Source: an uncultured Rhodospirillales bacterium (GTDB lineage: Bacteria; Pseudomonadota; Alphaproteobacteria; Acetobacterales; Acetobacteraceae). From it: 36,796 nt of DNA. Position 1 is the first letter of the stretch; each line of letters begins with the position of its first letter. The notes beneath the pieces are model-generated. The model was given only the letters and a program-made list of their open reading frames with translations, made no database searches and was not told the DNA's origin. Position numbers and translations under genes: made by a program. Below, one piece after another: positions 8,369-9,790 of the stretch. The stretch lies in assembly GCA_903823665.1 (NCBI GenBank), contig CAIJTR010000021.1:1-36796 (forward strand), written 5' to 3'.

Positions 8369-9790
8369 TTACCGTGTCTGAGGCGCACTCGTCGCCCATT
8401 CATGCGCGTGAACCAGGCCTTCGTCATGATCGTGATGCAGATCTACATGCGCTTGTGTGTGTTGTGCCTGTGAGTGGCCGTCGTGGTCGTGATCATGGAA
8501 TTGATCCGCCTCGGTGCTGCCTGCGAATGCGGTGGTAGAGGATTTGCCGCCGGAGACTGCCATCGCAACCGCATCGAAGTAGCTGACACCCACTTCGCGC
8601 TGGTGGCGAGTTGCGGTGTATCCATCGACCTCTGAGGCAAACTCCGCCTGCTGGAGTTCCGAATACGCCGCCATGCCGCGATCCTTGTAGCCATGTGCCA
8701 GCTTGAACATCGAATGGTTCAGGCTATGGAAGCCTGCCAGGGTGACGAACTGGAACTTGTAGCCCATCGCGCCGATCAAACGCTGGAACTCAGCGATCTT
8801 GTCGGCCGGCAGTTTCTTCTGCCAGTTGAAGCTCGGCGAGCAGTTATAGGCGAGCATTTTGCCCGGATAGTGCTTGGCCATTTCGTTGGCGAAGCGCTCG
8901 GCTTCTTCCAGGTTCGGCTCGCTGGTCTCCCACCAGAGCAAGTCGGCATAAGGCGCATAGGCGAGGCTGCGGGCGATGGCGTAATCGACGCCGCGGCCCT
9001 GCTTGATGCGGTGGAAGCCCTCGGGTGTCCGCTCGCCGGTGATGAACGGACGGTCGCGCTCGTCGACGTCCGCCGTCAGCAGTTGGGCGGAATGGCTGTC
9101 GGTGCGGCAGAGCAGCACGGTCGGCACGCCCTCGACGTCAGCTGCCAGGCGGGCCGCGTTCAGCGTGCGGATATGCTGGCTGATCGGCACCAAAACCTTG
9201 CCGCCGAGATGCCCGCATTTCTTTTCCGAGGCGAGCTGGTCCTCAAAATGCACGCCGGCCGCACCCTTTTCGATCATCGCCTTCATCAACTCGTAGGCGT
9301 TGAGCGCGCCACCGAAGCCCGCTTCAGCGTCAGCGATGATCGGGGCCATCCAGTAGGTGCTGGTGTCGCCTTCCATTTTGGCGATCTGATCGCAGCGGCG
9401 CAGGGCGTTGTTGATGCGGCCCACCACCTGCGGCACGCTGTCCACCGGGTAAAGCGACTGGTCGGGATACATCTGGCCCGCCGAGTTGGCGTCACCCGCC
9501 ACCTGCCAGCCGGAGAGGTAGATCGCCTTCAGCCCGGCTTTCACCTGCTGTACCGCCTGATTGCCGGTGAGCGCGCCCAACGTGTTGATGAAGGGCTCGG
9601 TCTTGAGCAGGTGCCAAAGGCGGTTGGCCCCCATTTCCGCAAGGGTGTGTTTCACACGGAAATTGCCGGCGAGCTTCTCTACGTCGGCTGGTGTGTAGTC
9701 ACGCCGAATGCCGGCAAAGCGCTCCGGATCCTGACGCGAGAAGCCAGCCATACCATCGGGGCTGCGACAAATTGAGGGAGAAGAACGCAT
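8369..9790 (-). CDS. aceA: Isocitrate lyase with a His-rich C-terminal tail
   Basis: This 473-residue enzyme of the glyoxylate shunt cleaves isocitrate to glyoxylate and succinate in the cytoplasm. The catalytic motif KKCGHLGGK is intact with Cys192. Conserved blocks such as [18 protein letters not shown] and [13 protein letters not shown] are all present. The normal end of the family ([18 protein letters not shown]) is reached near residue 431. A further 42 residues follow, containing 11 His and several Asp, including HDHDHDGH and HHDHDEG. AGGAG eight bases before the ATG fixes the start. The gene is divergent from a ScfR-type regulator, so its expression is probably tied to acetate or fatty-acid growth. 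No malate synthase gene is in the window. Confidence 0.95.

Follow-up and report, generated by a model that had tools for sequence, protein, structure and literature searches.

The window, a 36,796-nucleotide stretch of DNA from an uncultured bacterium of the family Acetobacteraceae, carries an isocitrate lyase (ICL) gene that faces a regulator gene (Table 1). The ICL product scored 732.4 bits against the NCBIfam model NF011645, above the curated cutoff of 562. An 11-residue stretch containing KKCGH, which we take to be the isocitrate lyase signature and to serve the role of that signature here, was invariant across 36 aligned sequences including the window ICL, and the canonical C-terminal QFH of the core matches that of 6lrp. 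The core, the signature and the QFH end are alike in the window ICL and bacterial AceA (NF011645). By family membership the protein is an isocitrate lyase (AceA), with predicted catalytic activity. Unlike 6lrp, the window ICL has a C-terminal motif beyond QFH, and it bears an N-terminal [AS]P[DE]G tag that is absent from four ICL1s of other families.

In regard to the regulator, the ScfRs (PF09856), HTH and M78-like domains all scored above their gathering scores, which makes the protein a member of the ScfR type. The score against the RamB model NF038139 was 416.4 bits, and we named the protein RamB-like because this value is below the curated cutoff of 700. According to excerpts of PMC10370305, an ScfR-type regulator in Paracoccus denitrificans lies immediately upstream of glyoxylate-cycle genes, in the opposite orientation, and acts as an activator. 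The arrangement of regulator and glyoxylate-cycle gene is already known from that locus, whereas the regulator there faces malate synthase, followed by icl, and the excerpts mention no motif protein (PMC10370305). Directly downstream of the window icl, at 6736–8307 (−), lies a gene for a β-lactamase-fold protein, which is D-aminopeptidase-like with a score under the cutoff of that model and had no counterpart at the other motif loci (see below) in the neighbour clustering. Cytochrome bd oxidase subunits I and II are encoded close to the icl locus at 4175–6640 (+).

Table 1. Features of the isocitrate lyase locus in the window.
Feature	Position	Strand	Basis or remarks
Isocitrate lyase gene (ICL class 1)	8369..9790	(-)	473 aa including both extensions; NF011645, Pfam ICL
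N-terminal extension, residues 1-22	9725..9790	(-)	Best solved-ICL matches begin at residue 21-24
SPDGM within the N-terminal extension	9749-9763	(-)	
ICL catalytic core, residues 23-432, ending STEADQFH	8495..9724	(-)	6lrp alignment reaching residue 432
Variable His/Asp-rich linker, residues 433-455, 8 His	8426..8494	(-)	Comparison of 53 fused tails
Conserved motif, residues 456-466 (11 residues)	8393..8425	(-)	Motif pattern search of family genomes
C-terminal TSAPQTR after the motif	8372..8392	(-)	5-13 variable residues after the motif W in 53 fused tails
Putative divergent promoter/operator region, 139 bp, icl to RamB-like gene	9791..9929	(.)	Presumed promoter role
RamB-like ScfR-family regulator	9930..11324	(+)	Pfam ScfRs 212.7 bits vs 24

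The frame of the window ICL continues for 42 residues past STEADQF, with 11 His and 6 Asp. If His were as frequent in the tail as in the core (12/431), 11 or more among 42 residues would be expected with a probability of 1.5e-8, and the 17 other window ORFs chosen for comparison contain at most 7 His per 42 residues. The His-rich tail that an earlier note on this DNA had described is confirmed by these values, and its position, 8369–8500, corresponds to the tail plus the stop codon. The core end that the note placed at STEADQF was nearly right; the chain of 6lrp, the best solved relative, ends at QFH, so 41 rather than 42 residues are extra. A sequence error hiding a true stop codon after STEADQF, which the note had considered, is contradicted by relatives with the same fused layout and synonymous third-position changes. 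The AlphaFold2 model of the window ICL, aligned with 35 relatives, had a mean pLDDT of 50.0, too low to place the tail.

To follow the suggestion that conservation be checked in Acetobacteraceae, we compared 16 in-family ICLs fetched by ICL similarity from a search of 60 related genomes. The tail was fused in 9, the motif was found in an ORF just downstream in 6, and one (L006) had neither. By this check, which the note itself had named, the tail is conserved. The 9 fused tails end in D[DE]GLVHxHxWA, or in DHGIDHSHDWA in L005. Among 119 distinct ICL1 cores, 53 were fused, 55 had the motif in a separate ORF and 11 had neither (4 of these from other families); many of the cores were fetched because they were motif-positive, so these counts are no measure of prevalence. 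In the 53 fused Acetobacteraceae tails, the best-kept part was the terminal [HYF]D[DE]GLVHxHxWA and not the His run. Their linkers ranged from 8 to 28 residues with 0–8 His (median 2), the window having the highest number (8) and the next 4. The His share was 16.4% in the pooled fused linkers, well above that of the core of the window enzyme, and 5.8% outside the motif in the free-standing proteins. Taken together, these values make the His enrichment real but loose.

The motif is kept at the protein level. In 210 distinct motif peptides, H, Y or F stood before the motif in 206 and the W was retained in 207; because the motif search itself demanded D, G, H and H, their presence is not independent evidence. 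The third codon positions of the motif vary freely (217 distinct DNA instances). Free ORFs of equal length were compared in 31 overlapping pairs: motif codons had 87 synonymous and 37 nonsynonymous differences, and the non-motif codons of the same pairs had 192 and 485, respectively.

Five representative motif peptides had no accepted match, to CP12 or any other family, in Pfam and NCBIfam, and a motif profile found no accepted match among PDB sequences. When Pfam matches with E values up to 10 were considered, peptide 1 matched COQ9_N (20.9 bits) and peptide 3 matched CFSR (13.3 bits), both below the cutoff of 27 and taken as chance, and the other three peptides had no match. In open-licence PubMed Central, preprints outside, the matches listed contained nothing on the extension, an ICL microprotein or the pathway in these genera, and the letters of the motif did not occur in the text. 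These searches of Pfam, NCBIfam, PDB and open-licence literature point to an undescribed motif. It is easy to miss because the free ORFs have only 28–79 codons and the searched family libraries gave no accepted match.

Of 150 family genomes, 70 contained the motif DNA pattern and none its reversed control; a second, overlapping family sample gave 39 of 150 (1 control match). Matches in family genomes came from 54 of the 102 genera sampled. In a class-wide sample, the motif occurred in the window's own genome only and in 0 of 285 genomes of other families. A stricter pattern gave at least 118 stretches over genome contigs; the 80 matches listed were from Acetobacteraceae or from records broadly labelled Proteobacteria, Alphaproteobacteria or Rhodospirillales, together with one titled Solirubrobacterales, whose contig has the same length (18,037) as contig 213 of an in-family genome (G033). 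A two-copy small motif protein had no tblastn match in 72,556 plasmid records. A match past the ICL end on a plasmid of Aureimonas sp. AU20 was rejected as chance, since the downstream hypothetical protein lacks the motif; on this plasmid (L298), icl is divergent from an XRE-family regulator and is followed by an unrelated 95-aa hypothetical ORF.

The distribution of the motif follows that of ICL. Among the 150 family genomes, 70 had the motif, 75 had ICL1 (NF011645 type), 14 had ICL2 (PRK06498 class) and 92 had an ortholog of the RamB-like gene, the last count being 98 less six genomes with paralog-like best hits (37–41% identity). No genome had both ICL1 and ICL2, so the two are mutually exclusive in this sample. 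Of the 70 motif-positive genomes 67 had an ICL, against 22 of the 80 motif-negative ones (Fisher p = 2.5e-19, kinship ignored). In regard to the three motif-positive genomes without ICL, an ICL fragment with the tail sits on another contig in G026, G174 is 66% complete, and the motif match of G083 is atypical. The strict pattern was missing from 22 ICL-positive genomes, eight of which carry a variant (G074, G153, G159, G073, G081, G111, G157 and G175); the last five of these came from a check of 29 chosen genomes that were mostly ICL-positive, so the result is not comparable with the count for ICL-negative genomes. After the variant checks, 14 of 89 ICL-positive genomes still had no motif found. 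The regulator was present in 87 of the 89, and this tight co-occurrence means that the link of the motif to either partner is not cleanly separable. Five genomes had the regulator without ICL at the cutoff, two of which (G026 and G162) hold ICL fragments. No convincing motif was found in the other three (G011, G022 and G136), where a weak match in G022 (E = 0.03) did not hold up.

The motif occurs in three settings: fused to ICL, in a small ORF that closely follows an ICL without a tail, and in mini-genes that lack an ICL core. Among 63 motif loci, the RamB-like cluster was found in 46, usually on the upstream side and in divergent orientation to the ICL or motif ORF, and ICL was found in 40 by the gene call used for neighbour clustering. 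The free ORFs start close to the motif and encode 28–79 residues when counted from the nearest start before the motif, and a Shine-Dalgarno-like 4-mer preceded 45 of 54, compared with 47% in shuffles. Two copies of the motif were present in 37 of the 54 and one copy in 17; the motif stands near the N-terminus or in the middle of the free proteins, also in tandem. Some free motif ORFs lie away from both ICL and the regulator, in mixed surroundings. Those of L075, L076 and L123, which begin MTYAAPSCDFYDDGLVH or similar, lie near a PhaR-cluster gene instead of ICL, and a PHA-synthase-type gene is also close by in L075 and L076. Single-copy free ORFs often bear a second, C-terminal motif like TPST[VA]xxDD (L090, L091, L109, L089, L095, L293 and L294). 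At L147:5350-5424 (the same region as L053), the ICL stops at a TAA in the linker and the motif follows at once in the same frame; seen in one MAG, this split may be genuine or an artefact of assembly.

Of 110 distinct ICL1 N-termini, 97 have the tag P[DE]G ahead of the core, and none of the 4 from outside the family does; the corresponding values for ICL2 were 8 of 8 in the family and 0 of 1 outside it. The codons of the tag also vary. Two non-orthologous ICL classes therefore share the [AS]P[DE]G tag at the N-terminus. In G079, G086, G110 and G157, ICL2 occupies the position where ICL1 usually stands, divergent from the RamB-like gene. An obligate pairing of tag and motif was ruled out by exceptions on both sides: the motif occurs without the tag in L109, L117, L124 and L262, and in G095 and L267 with L086, and the tag occurs without a fused or adjacent motif in L250 and L255–L258. 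As a general N-terminal tag, [AS]PDGM was also rejected; this narrow pattern, which misses the window's own AGC-coded serine, was found at 20 places in 6 genomes, three of them at an ICL or mini-gene start and the rest looking incidental.

A quick tree of the 119 ICL cores required 10 changes between fused and all other types and 12 changes among all three states, and its well-supported branches force 2 changes for each grouping. In this tree the branches that part first within the family belong to the separate type, though at an open fork, and it gives no direction for most changes.

At nine loci in six genera (L031, L032, L070, L072–L074, L077, L084 and L088), the regulator faces a mini-gene without an ICL core. 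All nine keep the motif, and eight start with [AS]P[DE]G. In L077 and L088 an RFxG stretch remains, like the one that follows the tag in ICL, and the L084 mini-gene, which starts YAPNSDRFDGV and contains TEPAQFHAPAK, resembles both ends of ICL. The sequence ahead of the mini-gene in two congeners of the window genome was identical to the upstream region of the window icl at 100 of 137 (G004) and 92 of 140 (G006) positions, and the last 72 bases at 49 and 48 positions, respectively. Most simply, the mini-genes would have arisen from icl genes by loss of the core, with both ends preserved; such retention of a tail after its enzyme domain has gone would be unusual. ICL2 was present in five of the nine mini-gene genomes (G029, G061, G098, G129 and G169), a count outside which G249 falls; G006 has an ICL2-like frame and G026 an ICL1 fragment. 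In the search of 60 related genomes, no ICL was found in G004, which has both the RamB-like gene and a mini-gene. The G061 mini-gene has three complete motif copies plus a fourth that is truncated by the end of the contig, and one copy lies in a matching context on another contig of that genome (L085).

Conservation of the motif, its fusion and separation, its linkage to ICL, and loss of the core with retention of the motif are observed directly. Our best explanation, to which we give slightly less than an even chance, is that the tail ends in a short ICL-dedicated peptide, fused or encoded by a separate small ORF, that is used to control ICL. We infer that the peptide binds something; it would bind a defined site and thereby control ICL or its assembly at the branch point between the TCA cycle and the glyoxylate shunt, with fused copies acting in cis and free copies in trans. 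According to excerpts of PMC8099091, the C-terminus of Mycobacterium tuberculosis ICL is a lid over the active site of the neighbouring subunit. A tail at this lid is suitably positioned to affect closure or assembly, and a free, tandem form could do the same in trans. Given this lid role, the simplest mechanism would have the lid close, or the tetramer associate, differently when the motif is captured or let go. In that case the window's His-rich linker would serve chiefly as a flexible tether, although the fused linkers as a group are His-enriched, which a mere tether would not require. ICL commits carbon to the glyoxylate shunt, and a fused, free or tandem peptide would be a new control of that branch point.

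The arrangement resembles that of CP12 and GapB. In excerpts of PMC3838966, CP12 is described as a small intrinsically disordered control protein whose C-terminal part also extends GapB (photosynthetic GAPDH), and the extension is thought to derive from gene fusion. A second enzyme of central carbon metabolism thus has a control peptide both in cis and in trans. The likeness is that one peptide occurs both as a free small protein and fused to an enzyme, which was found for the ICL motif as well. In contrast, no sequence relation was found in Pfam or NCBIfam (5 peptides), and the motif consensus contains no cysteine; as there is no cysteine pair, thioredoxin control is not implied. Unlike CP12, the ICL motif can occur in tandem copies and is also supplied by core-less icl genes. 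A broader reading, which we regard as possible but doubtful, is that Acetobacteraceae have an undescribed family of small multivalent ICL-dedicated proteins that occur fused to the enzyme, as a tandem partner and as the sole product of core-deleted icl genes, and that serve two non-orthologous ICL classes. If this were true, the peptide would be a cofactor that outlives its parent enzyme and would amount to a bacterial CP12 equivalent acting on the glyoxylate shunt, and several core-deleted icl genes would stand in genomes where a non-orthologous ICL took over.

A serious rival, though an unlikely one, is docking of a third protein (a scaffold, malate synthase or a storage-granule surface) to the motif as a tag, so that ICL would be placed rather than regulated and the free multi-copy proteins would be linkers. 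The predominance of two-copy free ORFs and the three or more copies of G061 look multivalent. In G079, G110 and G174 the free ORFs have PhaR-cluster genes nearby, with PHA-synthase-type genes also close to two of them; the PhaR of L076 scored above its cutoff, and the synthase-type protein of L075 was below. However, the most frequent neighbour clusters beyond the regulator and ICL were found in only 10, 7 and 7 of the 63 motif loci, and a role as a general tag on other enzymes was rejected, as no other enzyme with the motif was found among the matches read or placed beside ICL (all but G021:C251). Histidine-rich tails are known from metal-handling proteins, and the HDHDHDGH and HHDHDEG runs of the window are locally similar to them. 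The metal-binding tail (Ni, Zn or Co) for buffering or metal-dependent regulation that the earlier note proposed is favoured by the 11 His in the window tail, the His share of the pooled linkers and the persistence of HxH, Asp and Trp in the motif, although the search itself demanded D, G, H and H. The relatives, however, do not share these runs, and their linkers carry fewer His, down to 0; the free proteins have 5.8% His outside the motif, which also counts against it. Metal binding would rest on the less conserved part of the tail or on the single HxH of the motif. The variability of the His run weakens this reading, but the group-wide enrichment and the HxH speak for it, and we regard it as unlikely. 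The "regulation or oligomer control" that the same note offered would fit better than metal binding.

We consider it very unlikely that the peptide, as a co-regulator or sensor, has the RamB-like regulator as its target and that its tie to ICL comes solely from the control of icl by that regulator. The regulator is present in 68 of 70 motif-positive genomes and is divergent from the core-less mini-genes, but the fusion seen is to ICL, and the three genomes with the regulator and no ICL found gave no convincing motif. A degradation signal setting ICL turnover upon acetate exhaustion would suit the C-terminal position in the fused forms, where only 5–13 variable residues follow, but hardly the N-terminal, central or tandem positions in the free proteins, and we give it very little credence. 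The resemblance of the mini-genes to icl remnants could suggest a DNA-level element or a drifting remnant with no protein function. The free third-position changes together with the near-fixed peptide argue against this, as do separate ORFs with ribosome-binding-site-like sequences and the spread over more than half of the genera sampled, and we consider it extremely improbable. Among the stricter-pattern matches listed, the motif occurs in the culturable genera Acidiphilium, Acidocella, Falsiroseomonas and Siccirubricoccus.
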